This document shows, piece by piece, positions 38,055 through 44,747 of a stretch of DNA of 55,676 bases. This DNA comes from Geovibrio ferrireducens (lineage in GTDB: Bacteria > Chrysiogenota > Deferribacteres > Deferribacterales > Geovibrionaceae). The stretch's first letter is position 1. Each line of letters starts with the position of its first letter. The notes under the pieces were generated by a model. The model saw only the letters and a list, made by a program, of their open reading frames with translations. It had not been told where the DNA came from and made no database searches. Where the stretch lies: positions 1-55,676 of the forward strand of contig NZ_JAJAPB010000016.1 in NCBI RefSeq assembly GCF_026226615.1, given 5' to 3'. Made by a program: the position numbers and the translations under genes.

Positions 38055-38756
38055 CTAAAGAAGAGACTTTACAAATTCTGAATATTCCGCAGAATTTTTC
38101 TGGAGCTTAACAGCCGCAGTGCCCACCACAAAGCCGTCCGCAACCTTAAGCGCCTTGTCCGCGTCAGTTTTGTCCTTTATGCCGAAGCCCATCACTATTT
38201 TTTTATCGGTAAACGCTTTTATCTGCTGTATGCGTTCAGATATTTCAGGGGAGGACAAGTCCACACTGCCCCCGGTTATACCCCTTATACCTATGAAGTA
38301 TATGAAATCGCCCTGCATCACAGCGGCTTTCTTTATATCCTCCTCGCGGGATTCGGGAGTAACGAACGGAATCAGAGGAATCTCAAACCCCTGATCATAA
38401 AAATAGCTGTGGAGCATGTTCGGCACATCAGGGATAATGAGCCCTGAGAGCACATCCTTGAAATCGTCCGAGAATTTCTTTATTCCGTAGTTATATATAA
38501 TATTTGCATATGTCATTACGTACAGTTTCGCTTTCCCTTTGCTGAGGGTTTTAAGCCCTGCGAGAACATCCCCTGCCTTCACACCTGAGCCCAGAGCCTC
38601 CTGCACGGCAGAGGCTATCACGGGGCCGTCCGCCACGGGTTCGCTGAACGGAACGCCGATCTCCACAAATTCGTATCCGGCGCTTATTACAGCATCAAAA
38701 CATTTAACGAAGCTCTCCCTGTCAGGATAGTTGCCTACAATGTATATACCTCTCAT
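38055..38756 (-). CDS. trpA: Tryptophan synthase alpha subunit
   Basis: TrpA cleaves indole-glycerol phosphate and passes indole to TrpB. The 233-residue product is shorter than the usual ~265, mainly at the N-terminus. It keeps the core [20 protein letters not shown] with the catalytic Glu and Asp, GLIIPDVP, and the phosphate-binding [12 protein letters not shown] and VVGTAAVK. Its ATG shares four bases with the trpB stop. It is the last gene of the trp operon. Confidence 0.93.
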
Positions 38757-39895
38757 ATATCCCTCTCTGAATCCTTGTCTCCCCTGCCGGAGAGGTTGAT
38801 AAGCACCTTTCTGCCTTTGAACTTATCCTTATTTTTCAGCACATAGGCTATGGCGTGGCTCGATTCCACAGCGGGAACTATCCCTTCCCTGCGGGCAAGC
38901 TCACGGAAGGCGAAAACAGCGTCCTCATCCCTGACCTTGTCATATGTCACCCTGCCTGTTCCGTGCAGGTATGAGTGTTCAGGCCCTATGCCCGGATAAT
39001 CCAGCCCCGCGGCGATTGAGTGCACATCTGCAACCTGCCCGTCCGCAGTCTGCACAAGGTAGGTCACACATCCGTGGAGAATCCCCGCCCTGCCCTTTCC
39101 TATGGCCATGGCGTGATCCCCTTCGTTATCTGAGAGACCGCCAGCCTCTATGCCGTAAAGCTCGCAGGAGGTGTCAAGAAAGCCTTTGAATATGCCTATG
39201 GCGTTGCTGCCGCCGCCCACACAGGCCACCACAGCATCAGGGAGAAAGCCCATCTCCTTGAAGCTTGCCCTTGCCTCCCTGCCGATTACGCTCTGGAAGT
39301 GCGCAACCATCTCCGGAAACGGGTGAGGCCCTATGACGGAGCCGATTATGTAATGAGTGTCCTCAACATTTTTAACCCAGTCACGCATAGCTGCGTTTGT
39401 GGCATCTTTCAGGGTTTTTGAGCCGTCATGGACAAGCTCAAGCTTAGCTCCCAGAAGCTTCATTCTGTCCACATTGGGCTTCTGTCTCGCAGCATCCACC
39501 GCACCCATGTACACTGTGCAGTCCAGCCCGAAGAGTGCTGCAACCGTGGCAGTAGCCACACCATGCTGTCCGGCTCCTGTCTCGGCGATTATCCTTTTTT
39601 TACCCATGTAGCGGGTAAGGAGTGCCTGAGCTATAGTATTATTTATCTTATGGGAGCCTGTGTGGTTAAGGTCTTCCCTTTTAAGGTAAATCTCGACTCC
39701 GTATTCCTCGGACATCCTTGAGGCATAGTAAACCGGGGAGGGTCTGCCTATGTAGGTTGTACTGTATCTGGCGAGATCCTTCTTAAACTCAGGGTCGTCC
39801 TTAAGCATGTTAAACTCTCTTTCAAGCTGTTCCAGTGCCGGAACAAGGGTTTCGGGAACGAACATTCCGCCGAAATCACCGAAAAATCCTTTCAT
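38753..39895 (-). CDS. trpB: Tryptophan synthase beta subunit
   Basis: TrpB condenses indole with serine using PLP. The 380-residue product has [15 protein letters not shown] with the PLP lysine (about residue 86), [16 protein letters not shown], the phosphate loop GGGSNAIG and a C-terminal NLSGRGDKD. It is the standard TrpB1 partner of TrpA. A second, TrpB2-type gene is at 54057-55412. It overlaps trpA and trpF by 4 nt each. Confidence 0.97.
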
Positions 39896-40431
39896 ATATC
39901 CGCTCCTCTTACTGCATCTATAAATTTTTTCATAAGTTCATAATCCTTTACGCCGTCTTTCTCCACTCCGGAGGAGACATCAGCCCCGAACGGGCGCACA
40001 GCTTTCACAGCATCCGCAACGTTTCCGGGGTTCAGCCCGCCGGAGATAAGCAGCTTATCCCTGTAGGCGCTTAGCCATTCGGGAAAGCCTTTGTATATGC
40101 CTGAGCCTCTGCTTGCGTCATAAACGAAAAGGGCGCATTCAGTGTCCCGCTCGTCTCTGTCTGATGCGTAGGCGAGATTAGGCAGGTTCACCGCCTCGGA
40201 CACCTGAACATAGTCCGCCAGATGCGCCGCCTCCTTCACCTCATCAAAGCTTACGCCCACAATGAACGTCTTTATCCTTCCCTGAGCGTATGTTATCAGC
40301 TTGGCCGCATCTTCGGCGTTCACGTATCTTCTGCTGGGTTTATGCATCACGAAGCCCGCGGCATCGTACCCCAGTTCAACCGCCTTATCTATCTGCTCAA
40401 ATGTTTTTAAACCGCAGACTTTTACAAACAT
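39892..40431 (-). CDS. trpF: Phosphoribosylanthranilate isomerase
   Basis: TrpF carries out the Amadori rearrangement before indole-glycerol phosphate formation. The 179-residue TIM barrel is a little short for the family. It shows [12 protein letters not shown] with the catalytic Cys, [25 protein letters not shown] with its Asp equivalent region, and [15 protein letters not shown]. It overlaps trpC by 10 nt and trpB by 4 nt. Confidence 0.95.
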
Positions 40432-41171
40432 GCAGCCGCCATCATCTCAGCGAAAAGCTCCTCTATTCTGTCGGAAGCCATAAGCCCTGAGCCTATAAGG
40501 AACGCATCCGCCCCTGCTCCGCGCATCATGGCCACATCCATCGGCTTTTTCATGCCGCTTTCCGCCACCTTCATATAGTCGCCGTTCAGAATATCCAGCA
40601 TGTGCGCACCGTAACCCATGTTTATCTCAAGTGTTTTGAGGTTGCGGTTGTTCACCCCCAGAAGCTTGGGTTCACAGGCCAGAACTGTCTCTATCTCCTC
40701 AAGGGCGTGTACCTCAAAAAGTACCTCCAGCCCCAGAATCCGTGCCTTTTTAGCGAGATAAAGCATCTCATCCTTATTCAGCACCGAGGCCATGAGCAGA
40801 ACACAGTCCGCCCCTGCGGAGTAGGCGTTTGTTATCTGCTTTTCATCAATGATAAAATCCTTGCAGAGAACGGGAATCTTAATCTCCGCCGCAACCGCCG
40901 CCAGATCGTTTATGCTCCCCTTGAAGTATTTTTCATCACAGAGAACACTCACCGCACCTGCGCCGAGGCGTTCGTAGGTTTTTGCCTGAACAACCGGATC
41001 TGCCGCCGTGTTTATATCACCCAGAGAAGGGGAAGCCTTCTTGACCTCCGCTATTATCGGCTTTGTCCTGAGCGATTCCCTGAAATTCAGTACAGGCTTT
41101 GTCCGCCTGCCCGGAAAGGTTTTCAGGGTTTCCATCTCTCTGCGTTTATTGGCTATTATTTCATCCAGCAT
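40422..41171 (-). CDS. trpC: Indole-3-glycerol phosphate synthase
   Basis: TrpC closes the indole ring. The 249-residue barrel has MLDEIIANKRREM at the start, IIAEVKKASPSLGDI, CKDFIIDEKQI and GVNNRNLKTLEI with catalytic Lys and Asn, and AESGMKKPMDV. I start at 41171, one base after the trpD stop (TAA-A-ATG). An upstream Met would put ten non-conserved residues in front. Confidence 0.96.
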   Translation of the reverse strand: MLDEIIANKRREMETLKTFPGRRTKPVLNFRESLRTKPIIAEVKKASPSLGDINTAADPVVQAKTYERLGAGAVSVLCDEKYFKGSINDLAAVAAEIKIPVLCKDFIIDEKQITNAYSAGADCVLLMASVLNKDEMLYLAKKARILGLEVLFEVHALEEIETVLACEPKLLGVNNRNLKTLEINMGYGAHMLDILNGDYMKVAESGMKKPMDVAMMRGAGADAFLIGSGLMASDRIEELFAEMMAAACL

Positions 41172-41172
41172 T

Positions 41173-42156
41173 TTATCCTCTGAGGCTTTCGAGTTTTTCA
41201 ACCACTTTTCCGCTTTTTATCACGGATTTCGCCTTTTCAAAACCATCTTTCATATCAGCGCAGATTCCGCTCACATAAAAAGCCAGAGCCGTGTTCAGGG
41301 CTATGAGATCCGTGAGCTGTTCGTCCTCACCGGCTATGGCTCTGAGAAATTTGGACTTTGCGTCCTCTCCGTCAGTGACCACAGGCATTTCAAAGGGTGT
41401 GAAGAAATCAGCCGGGTTAACGCTGAATTTCTCGACTCCGCCGGATGTTATCCTGTAGCAGAGTGTGGGGGCGCTGCTTGAAACCTCGTCATATCCGTCT
41501 TCGGAACTGTAGAGGATTACCCCTGTTCTGCCCAGTTTTTCCATGGCTTTTGCCAGTTTTTCAAGCTTGTCTATGTTGCTGATCCCTATGAGCTGGTAAT
41601 CAGGGTCGCAGGGGTTTGAGAGAGGGCCGAGAAAATTGAACACCGTGGGAACCTTGATAGCTCTTCTCACCGGGCCTGCGTACTTCATTGCGGGGTGGAA
41701 CTTCGGTGCGAAGAGGAAAACATAGCCGTGCTTCTCGAAATACTCGCTGTCCTTTCCTTCGTCAAACTCTATGGGAACGCCGAGATGACGCAGAATATCT
41801 GCGGAGCCTACCTTGCCGCTCTGTGCGACATTTCCGTGTTTGACTATGTTTACGCCCGCCGCCGCCAGCACAAGGGAGACCGCAGTGGAGACATTGATTG
41901 TGGATTTGCCGTCACCGCCTGTTCCGCAGGTGTCGATGACTATCCTGTCGCCCTTATCCAGACGTATCTTCTTCTTGTTCATGGCGTTTGCCGCACCGGC
42001 TATCTCGTCCGGAGTTTCACCCCGAAGGCGCATAGCCACCAGAACGGCCGCTATCTCCGCCTCGGTGAGTTCCCCCGCCATTATCGCATCAAAAAGTTCG
42101 CTTGCCTCTTCAAAGCTCAGCTCATGCCCCATAGCGGTTTTCTGTACCAGCGTCAT
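41173..42156 (-). CDS. trpD: Anthranilate phosphoribosyltransferase
   Basis: TrpD joins phosphoribosyl pyrophosphate to anthranilate. The 327-residue product has the nucleoside-phosphorylase-III-type fold and the binding loop CGTGGDGKSTINVSTAVS (about 78-96), KHGNVAQSGKVGSAD, FLFAPKFHPAMK and FNFLGPLSNP. It overlaps trpG by 4 nt and is followed one base later by trpC. Confidence 0.97.
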   Translation of the reverse strand: MTLVQKTAMGHELSFEEASELFDAIMAGELTEAEIAAVLVAMRLRGETPDEIAGAANAMNKKKIRLDKGDRIVIDTCGTGGDGKSTINVSTAVSLVLAAAGVNIVKHGNVAQSGKVGSADILRHLGVPIEFDEGKDSEYFEKHGYVFLFAPKFHPAMKYAGPVRRAIKVPTVFNFLGPLSNPCDPDYQLIGISNIDKLEKLAKAMEKLGRTGVILYSSEDGYDEVSSSAPTLCYRITSGGVEKFSVNPADFFTPFEMPVVTDGEDAKSKFLRAIAGEDEQLTDLIALNTALAFYVSGICADMKDGFEKAKSVIKSGKVVEKLESLRG

Positions 42157-42707
42157 TTTATCCCCCTTGCGAAATTTATGAAATTAGTGACCATTTTCGC
42201 ACCCTCTTCACTGCGCACCGATTCCGGGTGAAACTGAACACCGAAGAGCATTTTTTCCTTATCTTCCATAGCCATAACCTCGCCGTCGCTTTTTGCTCTG
42301 GCTGTCACGAGATGATCCGCACCTTTGACGGCAAGGGAGTGGTAGCGCACTGCGTCAAACTCATTTATCCCTTCAAAAATAACGCTTTTCTCCGCCTTCA
42401 CCCTGTCTATCTTTCCGTGCATAACCGACTTTGCCCTGCCCACCTCATAACCCAGATGATAGCCTATCGCCTGCATTCCGAGGCAGACACCGAATATGGG
42501 CTTTCTGCCTGCGTATTCTTTCAGGTAGTGCAGGCTTGTGCCTGAGTTTGCAGGGTGCGAAGGGCCGGGGGATATTATAATCCCTTCGTATTTATCGGCA
42601 TTAACCGTTTCGTTATTCTTTATCAGCTCAACCTCCGCGCCGTTCAGCCTGAACAGGGCATACAGGTTGTATGTGAATGAATCGTAGTTATCAACGAGCA
42701 AAAACAT
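42153..42707 (-). CDS. trpG: Anthranilate synthase glutamine amidotransferase component
   Basis: TrpG supplies ammonia from glutamine to TrpE. The 184-residue class I amidotransferase has VDNYDSFTYNLY, the oxyanion loop ISPGPSHP, the nucleophile in FGVCLGMQAIG (Cys about 78) and the His/Glu pair in GVQFHPESVRSEEG. It overlaps trpE by 17 nt and trpD by 4 nt, so TrpE:TrpG balance is probably kept by translational coupling. Confidence 0.96.
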   Translation of the reverse strand: MFLLVDNYDSFTYNLYALFRLNGAEVELIKNNETVNADKYEGIIISPGPSHPANSGTSLHYLKEYAGRKPIFGVCLGMQAIGYHLGYEVGRAKSVMHGKIDRVKAEKSVIFEGINEFDAVRYHSLAVKGADHLVTARAKSDGEVMAMEDKEKMLFGVQFHPESVRSEEGAKMVTNFINFARGIK

Positions 42708-44163
42708 TGCTGTCCTCCAGATTTTTCAGTCTTTCGCAAGCGGCGAACATTGCGTTGAGCTTGTTATTTACCTCTTTGAATTCGTTTTCCGGCTTACTGT
42801 CGTAAACTATACCCGCTCCGGCGCGGAGTATCATTTTATCCGGCTTAACAAGCGCACTTCTGATAGTTATGCATGTGTCGAGGTTGCCGCTGTAGCCGAA
42901 GTAGCCTACGCACCCTGCGTAAAAGCCTCTGGTTGTGGTTTCGTATTTGCTGATAAGCTCCATAGCCCGCACCTTCGGCGCACCGCTTACTGTGCCCGCT
43001 GGGAAGGTTTTCATAAATGCGTTCAGGGGCGAAAAGCCTTCCTTCAGCTTTCCGGAGACAGATGAAACAATGTGAACCACATGGGAATAAACCTCCGCCT
43101 GAAAGCATTCGTCAACATTCACGCTCTCAGGTTCGCATCCGGCGTAAAGGTCGTTTCGGGCAAGGTCAAGGAGCATAAGGTGCTCTGAAATCTCTTTCGG
43201 GTCATTAAGGAGAGCGTTCTTTATTCCTTCTATGTCATCGCCTATGGGGTAAGTTCCCGCTATGGGCTTGAGTACCGCCTTTTTGCCAACCACTTTCAGG
43301 TGGATTTCGGGGGATGAACCGCAGAGAACATCTTTTCCGAACTTGAGATAAAACATATAAGGAGAAGGGTTTACATTTCGCAGCGCCCTGTAGAAGCTCA
43401 CAGGGTTTACCTTAGCCTTAATCTCGAACCTGTTGGAGAGAACAACCTGAATAGCCTCGCCTTCGATTATCTCTCCCCTGAGCTTCTCCACAAGCTCCAT
43501 ATATTCAGGCTGCTCAAACTCCTTAACAGGGTCAGCCATACCGGAATCGTGGGAGTCAAAGTTAAGTCCGTGAAGCTCGCCCGCCATAGCCTCAGTGCGT
43601 TTTACCGCCTTGGCGTATGCCTCTTCCGCATCCCCTTTAAGCGGAACGGAGCATGCGGCGTAAATTCTTCCCATGCGGTTGTCAAACACATAGAACTCAT
43701 CCACTTCGAAAAAGCCTATGAGGTTCTCATCTGAAGGTTCAGGGAGAAGCTCGCGGAGTGTGCCCATATAGTTTGCTGATTCGTAGCCGAAATAGCCCAC
43801 AAAACCGCCCGCGAAATCGCCGAAGCGTCCGTCGTTATAGCCTTTGCTTTTGAAAAACTCCTGACCCAGATAGTCCATGGGGTTCATCATAAAGGTGTTC
43901 TTCTTGCCCCCTTTCTCTTCTGTGATGGTTCCGCCCTTAAAGGTTATCACCCTCTTGGGCTTGCGGCCGAAGAAAGAGAACCTTGAAAAAGTCTTATCAA
44001 GATTCGCACTCTCCAGAAGAAAAACATGCTTCTCATTTGAAAAATTGCGGAGAAGGGCAATGGGCGTGAGCGTGTCCCCGGCTATCTCCCTGTAAACCGT
44101 AGCCCGGTCATACTTCGCTCCGTCTGCTATCTCCTTGAAAACACTCAGTTCGGGATAGATCAT
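42691..44163 (-). CDS. trpE: Anthranilate synthase component I
   Basis: TrpE turns chorismate into anthranilate and is normally feedback-inhibited by tryptophan. The 490-residue product has the N-terminal regulatory part with LLESANLDKTFSRFSFFG, where the LLES element commonly binds Trp. The chorismate-binding core includes EAIQVVLSNRF, LKPIAGTYPIG, PAGTVSGAPKVRAMELI and RAGAGIVYDSKPENEF. It is the first structural gene of the operon, about 480 bp from the leader peptide. TAGGAG precedes the ATG. Confidence 0.97.
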   Translation of the reverse strand: MIYPELSVFKEIADGAKYDRATVYREIAGDTLTPIALLRNFSNEKHVFLLESANLDKTFSRFSFFGRKPKRVITFKGGTITEEKGGKKNTFMMNPMDYLGQEFFKSKGYNDGRFGDFAGGFVGYFGYESANYMGTLRELLPEPSDENLIGFFEVDEFYVFDNRMGRIYAACSVPLKGDAEEAYAKAVKRTEAMAGELHGLNFDSHDSGMADPVKEFEQPEYMELVEKLRGEIIEGEAIQVVLSNRFEIKAKVNPVSFYRALRNVNPSPYMFYLKFGKDVLCGSSPEIHLKVVGKKAVLKPIAGTYPIGDDIEGIKNALLNDPKEISEHLMLLDLARNDLYAGCEPESVNVDECFQAEVYSHVVHIVSSVSGKLKEGFSPLNAFMKTFPAGTVSGAPKVRAMELISKYETTTRGFYAGCVGYFGYSGNLDTCITIRSALVKPDKMILRAGAGIVYDSKPENEFKEVNNKLNAMFAACERLKNLEDSNVFAR

Positions 44164-44250
44164 GCTGTTAACTCCTATCTTAATTAATTTTTATTTATTC
44201 ATTCTTCAGTTATTTCTATAAACCCTTGTAGGTTTTCATTCGTTTAAGCA

Positions 44251-44346
44251 TTTTCAAAAAACTACATCCTGTGTTTTTTGAAAAGACGCTCGCGGCGGGG
44301 TAACCCCGCCTTCGCTTCGCACGGCGCATTCCCGTCCGTGGGAATG
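44251..44346 (+). repeat. Three-hairpin repeat, copy 7
   Basis: First hairpin TTTTCAAAAAAC/GTTTTTTGAAAA (12 bp) around tacatcctgt, connector gacgctcgc, middle hairpin GGCGGGG/CCCCGCC around taa, connector ttcgcttcgcacggcg, last hairpin CATTCCC/GGGAATG around gtccgt. It lies inside the transcribed trp leader, 87 bp before trpE. Confidence 0.9.
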
Positions 44347-44390
44347 TGTGACTACCCTCATCACCAACTCCGAATAGTCAAAGCGTGTGT

Positions 44391-44524
44391 CCTGACTGCA
44401 CAGGATGTCGGCAGTCGGACTATAAACGGCTCCGCGGATGGAGCCGCGCCGTGCGAAGCGAAGACGCATTCACTGCGGCGCGAGCGTGTGTCCTGACTGC
44501 ACAGGATGTGGCAGTCAGGACTAT
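44391..44524 (-). repeat. Three-hairpin repeat, copy 8 (partly dimeric)
   Basis: On the minus strand: first hairpin GTCCTGACTGC/GCAGTCAGGAC around cacatcctgt, connector acacgctcgc, middle CGCA/TGCG, connector cttcgcttcgcacggcg, last hairpin CGGCTCC/GGAGCCG around atccgc. A second, imperfect copy of the first hairpin and connector follows (44391-44425). It lies inside the transcribed trp leader, directly after the second terminator. Confidence 0.85.
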
Positions 44525-44563
44525 AAAAACAGAAAGGGGGTCGCTGTTTTCACAACGACCCCC
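44521..44563 (-). terminator. Second terminator in the trp leader
   Basis: On the minus strand GGGGGTCGTTGT pairs with ACAGCGACCCCC (12 bp with one wobble) around a GAAA tetraloop, followed by TTTCTGTTTTT. It stands about 20 nt past the attenuator, between trpL and trpE. It must be read through for trpE to be expressed from the leader promoter. Confidence 0.8.
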
Positions 44564-44582
44564 TCTTAAATTCGGTTAAACC

Positions 44583-44616
44583 AAAAAGAGCCGCGCGGCA
44601 TGTACCACGCGGCTCT
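44583..44616 (-). terminator. trp attenuator
   Basis: On the minus strand GAGCCGCG pairs with CGCGGCTC. The stem extends inward by four more pairs (two of them wobble) to an ACAU loop, and TTTTT follows. It begins 30 nt past the trpL stop codon, the position of the classic attenuator. Confidence 0.85.
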
Positions 44617-44632
44617 GTATTATCACAGTATC

Positions 44633-44665
44633 AGCGGACAGCCTCCTATTCCGAAAGCGTCCACC
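44633..44665 (-). promoter_or_regulatory. Pause/anti-antiterminator hairpin (1:2) of the trp leader
   Basis: GGTGGAC (44665-44659 on the minus strand, covering two of the Trp codons) can pair with GTCCGCT (44639-44633). A ribosome stalled at the Trp codons would cover the first arm, as the attenuation model needs. The competing 2:3 pairing I find is weak (GGCTGT with the AC..AGCC just before and in the attenuator stem). Confidence 0.5.
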
Positions 44666-44711
44666 ACCAAAAATTAGCTGTAAAGTTGAAACCTTTAAAT
44701 GCCATTTCCAT
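44646..44711 (-). CDS. trpL: trp operon leader peptide
   Basis: This 21-codon frame ends FTANFWWWTLSE then TAG. It has three consecutive Trp codons (44661-44669), typical of a trp leader peptide. It lies downstream of a good promoter and is followed by the attenuator hairpin. The predicted transcription start is only about 3 nt before the first ATG, so translation would be leaderless. A second ATG at 44705 is the alternative. No ribosome site is visible for either. The downstream genes are trpEGDCFBA, so ribosome-mediated attenuation by charged tRNA-Trp is the expected control. Confidence 0.88.
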   Translation of the reverse strand: MEMAFKGFNFTANFWWWTLSE

Positions 44712-44719
44712 AATCAGCG

Positions 44720-44747
44720 ATTATAAGTATCTGTATAAAGAAGTCAA
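44720..44747 (-). promoter_or_regulatory. Promoter of the trp operon
   Basis: TTGACT (44742-44747), a 16-nt spacer and a consensus TATAAT (44720-44725) lie on the minus strand. The -35 overlaps the TGA of the MFS gene. Just upstream a 15-bp palindrome, gcggaaa-t-tttccgc (44748-44762), spans the last MFS codons and is a possible operator. Confidence 0.85.

Follow-up and report, generated by a model that had tools for sequence, protein, structure and literature searches.

The window, by which we mean the whole 55,676-nucleotide stretch of Geovibrio ferrireducens DNA analysed here, carries trpE, trpG, trpD, trpC, trpF, trpB and trpA on its minus strand (38055 to 44163), as identified with Pfam, which bears out the complete trpEGDCFBA operon that had been proposed to lie downstream of a hidden attenuator. 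On the same strand, a -35 box (TTGACT, 44747-44742) overlaps the stop codon of an MFS gene lying upstream and is followed, after a spacer of 16 nt, by a -10 box (TATAAT, 44725-44720); an ATG at 44711, 8 nt past the -10 box, opens trpL, a frame of 21 codons (MEMAFKGFNFTANFWWWTLSE, 44711-44646) that has no Shine-Dalgarno sequence and contains three consecutive Trp codons (TGGTGGTGG, 44661 to 44669). Promoter, start codon and frame all lie where the original prediction had placed them. The promoter agrees with the consensus at 11 of 12 letters and ranks best among the promoter-like sites of the window region, which number 4 against 1.0 expected. Judged from the spacing to the -10 box, transcription would begin on the minus strand at A44714 or A44711, since a distance of 8 nt to the ATG permits either a 3-nt leader or no leader, that is, a 5' UTR of 0-3 nt; this is consistent with the earlier statement that an ATG follows the promoter within about 3 nt.

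Downstream of trpL on the minus strand, hairpin 3:4, hereafter T1, consists of 13 pairs (44616-44587, -25.4 kcal/mol) followed by four further U to 44583, in agreement with the hairpin and U tail described previously. That description had treated T1 as the only attenuator hairpin; T1 is indeed present, but the picture of a single hairpin is incomplete, because a second conserved terminator, T2 (hairpin 5:6, 44567-44533, minus strand, about -27 kcal/mol), follows it, with an interrupted U tract (TTTCTGTTTTT) reaching to 44522. Also absent from the original prediction were two dispersed intergenic palindromic repeats (44249 to 44515, minus strand) that separate the leader from trpE. Such repeats, 60-100 nt in length, have 89 matches in the window genome in both orientations, several of them at contig ends, and they resemble REP/BIME elements. 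The additional length between T2 and trpE is similar in L004 and missing in L005, and the 300-nt stretch, consisting mostly of these repeats, was ruled out as a part of the switch. A promoter search on the minus strand between T2 and trpE found no separate trpE promoter. The window leader as a whole folds with a z of -3.9, its stability being matched by none of 200 shuffles; an Rfam scan of it yielded no family at the gathering threshold, and the matches below threshold were taken as chance.

To compare this leader among relatives, a TrpE protein search in 60 genomes was used to collect loci with upstream DNA, and the resulting set comprised the window and 22 members of the order Deferribacterales whose loci cover the leader, representing 9 genera and 6 families, with the genus of the window designated g1. 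An ORF containing WWW occurs 180-550 nt before trpE in the window and in 22 of 22 relatives, and the leader of L006 even has WWWW. Loss of the Trp codons in relatives, which would have spoken against the original prediction, was thus not seen. Conservation of the trpL peptide had been suggested as a further check; it holds for the WWW but not for the remainder, which differs between genera except that the residue after the motif is T, R or one of a few others. A covariance model of the leader recovered all 23 leaders at E < 1e-13, each upstream of trpE, a result that serves as a check of breadth rather than a discovery because 16 of the 23 were in the alignment of the model. Its weak matches away from trpE (G007, G009, G018, G022, G028 and G030) showed no Trp leader and are likely plain terminators. 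For families f4 and f6 and the remainder of the phylum, the covariance and leader searches gave nothing convincing; most genomes of f4 and f6 (e.g. G023 and G029) are without a close trpE match or a trp leader, which suggests that Trp synthesis has been lost or is otherwise regulated there. Alphaproteobacterial and other trpE loci, tried as a comparison set, contained few convincing trp leaders and were uninformative. With the TrpR family model, no match over the cut-off was obtained in the window genome or the 60 relatives.

The position of the promoter relative to trpL proved nearly constant across this set. When a sigma-70 weight matrix, built from E. coli frequencies, was run on the 150 nt before WWW, in 20 of the 22 leaders with upstream DNA an in-frame ATG followed the -10 box of the best promoter at a distance of 5-8 nt. 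Of the two exceptions, L020 has such a promoter in second rank, with the ATG at 9 nt, and L025 keeps TTTACA in register with no good -10 box in its top two. With this choice of start, the ATG precedes WWW by 12 codons in roughly half of the leaders and by 10-17 codons in the others. Predicted anti-SD pairing before the trpL ATG is no stronger than -4.0 kcal/mol in 22 of 22 leaders, and that before trpE amounts to -6.8 to -11.6 kcal/mol in the 11 checked. In L007, L010, L011, L013 and L015-L017, the longest trpL frame begins inside the promoter; its first ATG was rejected as the start and a later in-frame ATG fits, and automatic annotation would pick the wrong start in these genomes.

A trpL with a true leader, lacking a Shine-Dalgarno sequence and transcribed from farther upstream, for example by read-through from the MFS gene, would make the promoter match fortuitous. 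The MFS gene is co-oriented, only a weak terminator-like site precedes trpL, and the start position of transcription is deduced from spacing, all of which would suit such an arrangement. The genes upstream of trpL, as named by eye, are nevertheless of different kinds (MFS only in g1 and g2; elsewhere radical-SAM, DusB-like, MCP, SecA, FeoB-like and others), so that the promoter-ATG geometry has not been inherited along with a common upstream gene, and its constancy in 20 of 22 leaders makes a leadered trpL quite improbable. We therefore regard leaderless translation of trpL as well supported, with a transcription start predicted from the -10 spacing. The radical-SAM gene upstream in L007, L008, L012 and L014 has a CPFCASG motif and appears RlmN/Cfr-like by eye.

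Folding of the leader in the absence of a ribosome yields both hairpin 1:2, whose 5' strand includes the Trp codons, and T1, and the mutually exclusive alternatives 1:2, 2:3 and 3:4 fold in every genome shown in the comparison. To represent a ribosome halted at the first of the Trp codons, the first 12 nt were masked; region 2 then pairs with region 3, at -13 to -26 kcal/mol, before region 4 has been transcribed, and in the window the predicted antiterminator 2:3 (44597 to 44643, minus strand) has -16.0 kcal/mol. In all genomes shown, the stability of T1 exceeds that of 2:3, and the choice between them must therefore be kinetic, that is, set by folding order, a dependence shared with other trp attenuators. 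The locus thus combines the features of a ribosome-mediated trp attenuator, namely a tandem-Trp leader ORF, exclusive 1:2, 2:3 and 3:4 pairings and a terminator before the first gene. The trp attenuator with an essentially leaderless trpL put forward in the original prediction is accordingly upheld at the level of sequence and extended by comparison to the order, and we consider a leaderless, ribosome-mediated attenuator highly probable.

T2 accompanies this switch in 23 of 23 leaders, 10-31 nt past T1 (with manual placement of T2 in L003 and of T1 in L019 and L023). Tandem terminators are otherwise rare in genomes of Deferribacterales, where only 1 pair within 60 nt was found among 240 terminators sampled from 1.2 Mb. 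In g6, 20 nt separate the end of T2 from the trpE start, which leaves no room for a promoter, so that T2 must be read through. A third hairpin lies between T1 and T2 in L006, nested in the possible 4:5 helix.

The two terminators appear to be connected by a pairing of the 3' arm of T1 (region 4) with the 5' arm of T2 (region 5). This 4:5 hairpin is possible in the window (44555 to 44594, minus strand), where it is weak, as elsewhere in g1, at -12.8 kcal/mol with several G-U pairs, and it folds in 23 of 23 leaders at -12.8 to -31 kcal/mol, the figure for L006 including the nested hairpin. When whole leaders were scanned for partners of region 5, region 4 ranked first in 22 of 22. Compared with 5' arms of terminators sampled from the same genome, the leader's own T2 arm outranked all others in 11 of 11 genomes outside g1, and within g1 it was equalled or surpassed by 11 of 54 arms (window), 3 of 28 and 1 of 19; among 239 pooled arms, those doing as well as the own T2 numbered 0-3 for leaders outside g1 and 17, 8 and 4 for those of g1.

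Pair counts, made by script on anchored arms, point in the same direction. Across the six core columns outside g1, 4:5 comprises 117 Watson-Crick, 0 G-U and 3 mismatched pairs of 120, compared with 109, 10 and 1, respectively, for the stem of T2 itself and 107, 9 and 4 for the control pairing 3:6, which was considered in place of 4:5 and rejected as less well conserved. In L008, L012, L018 and L023, for example, 4:5 is Watson-Crick at core positions where the T2 stem wobbles. Region 5 thus seems to be matched more closely to region 4 than to its partner in the T2 stem, which would be hard to explain if T2 were a mere terminator. Exchanging T2 among genera reduced the pairing (permutation p = 0.0023 for Watson-Crick pairs and 0.00005 with G-U included), although the sample amounts effectively to about 9 genera and these statistics are only guides because the sequences are related by descent.

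We propose that RNA polymerase starts at, or no more than 3 nt from, the trpL AUG and that the leaderless end is where ribosomes load. When Trp-tRNA is ample, the ribosome would pass WWW to the stop codon and cover region 2, T1 would form and transcription would end, and any polymerases escaping T1 would meet T2. During Trp shortage, the ribosome would stall on WWW and mask region 1, region 2 would pair with region 3, and T1 would be blocked; the freed region 4 could then capture region 5, opening T2 and allowing trpE to be transcribed. The promoter spacing, the WWW leader, the 1:2, 2:3 and 3:4 potential, the conserved T2 and the order-wide 4:5 complementarity together make such a six-segment chain, which opens T1 and then T2 behind a leaderless trpL, a probable reading; its predicted elements are the transcription start, the stalling and the 4:5 switch itself, the last being weakest in g1.

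The complementarity of T1 and T2 might instead reflect shared composition, with an ordinary four-segment leaderless attenuator and a T2 that acts as a back-up passed at a fixed rate. Both terminators do have GGCC-type stems, a common terminator composition, and the classical 1:2, 2:3 and 3:4 alternatives would be enough for regulation; moreover, the 4:5 pairing of g1 is not clearly above random pairings, T2 is very stable, and the U tract of T2 in the window is interrupted. On the other hand, a fixed strong terminator before trpE in 23 of 23 genomes would cap expression during starvation, 4:5 keeps Watson-Crick pairs at core positions where the T2 stem wobbles, and the own T2 stands above all sampled terminators outside g1. 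We therefore consider this four-segment arrangement unlikely and favor, on balance, a chained double terminator across the order. For the window itself the assessment differs: in g1, 4:5 has only -12.8 to -14.8 kcal/mol and many G-U pairs, against a far stronger T2 of -27 to -30 kcal/mol, so that the chain is least certain in the genus of the window, where its action might be reduced or purely kinetic. Given this weakness and the interrupted U tract, the chain is to be read as a claim about the order, and its efficient action in the window is somewhat doubtful.

The relative roles of T1 and T2 could also be reversed, with T2 as the truly regulated terminator and T1 as a protector hairpin, corresponding to C:D of a his-type A-F series. 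Genus g5 (family f2; L019, L020 and L023) would fit this scheme, as its T1 U tract is degenerate and that of T2 good. In the other genera, however, at least four U follow T1, which outside g1 also surpasses T2 in stability in nearly all cases, and T1 should therefore terminate there; a purely protective T1 thus appears improbable for the order. In L019, L020 and L023, the U tract has been lost from T1 and kept in T2, as if these leaders were shifting towards the his type.

The proposed chain can be compared with several known systems. With the E. coli trpL attenuator it shares the tandem-Trp leader ORF, the 1:2, 2:3 and 3:4 alternatives and the terminator before trpE, but trpL of Deferribacterales is predicted to be leaderless, TrpR was not found and a second terminator is present. 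Campylobacter-type trp leaders are predicted to have a ribosome binding site (PMC3847290). In Streptomyces lividans, trpL1 (MFAHSTRNWWWTAHPAAH) is leaderless by RNA-seq, has a WWWT motif and lies upstream of trpE (PMC8079986); it differs in that trpE is monocistronic and in being described as having two hairpins and a single uridine-rich stretch in place of two full terminators. In Sinorhizobium meliloti, the trpL RNA begins at the trpL ATG (PMC7298713), as predicted here, and attenuation likewise operates without a trp repressor, whereas trpE(G) is monocistronic, trans action of both peptide and RNA has been demonstrated, and the phylum is another. The original prediction had suggested testing this likeness with regard to trans action and, through the neighboring MFS gene, to efflux. 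Here too, a terminated RNA is predicted, about 130 nt long and beginning at the AUG, which would suit action in the manner of rnTrpL or peTrpL, but conservation of the peptide across genera stops at WWW, and synteny with an efflux gene is confined to g1 and g2. Neither analogy is supported by these comparisons, and we consider trans action of the trpL RNA or peptide very improbable.

A parallel in design is the enterobacterial his attenuator, in which six segments form a chain of AB, CD and EF hairpins, as opposed to BC and DE, that is flipped by the ribosome (PMC10989985). The six segments and the leader ribosome that flips a hairpin chain would be common to both; the amino acid is different, the sequence is unrelated, and, whereas T1 is a terminator, no such role is described for CD, the middle hairpin of his. 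Because every genus except g5 has a T1 with a U tract, we do not classify the Deferribacterales leader as his-type. In the largely open-access literature that our search covered, there was no report of trp attenuation in Deferribacteres or of a trp attenuator with two terminators.

These results would extend leaderless trpL to a third phylum and provide comparative evidence that the arrangement has been maintained across an order. The extra hairpin of the his attenuator was modelled to lower basal read-through when a repressor is absent (PMC1183508), and T2 would similarly reduce basal read-through in bacteria without TrpR. We see about even chances that stalling of a single ribosome inactivates two successive intrinsic terminators, with the freed 3' arm of the first acting as antiterminator of the second, that trpL is obligatorily leaderless and that two terminators in series offset the missing Trp repressor. 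The leader thereby offers a testable design for low basal expression from an attenuator without a repressor, a question that arose from the comparison of trp with his (PMC1183508), and family f2, whose T1 no longer has a U tract, might represent a natural intermediate between the trp type and the his type.
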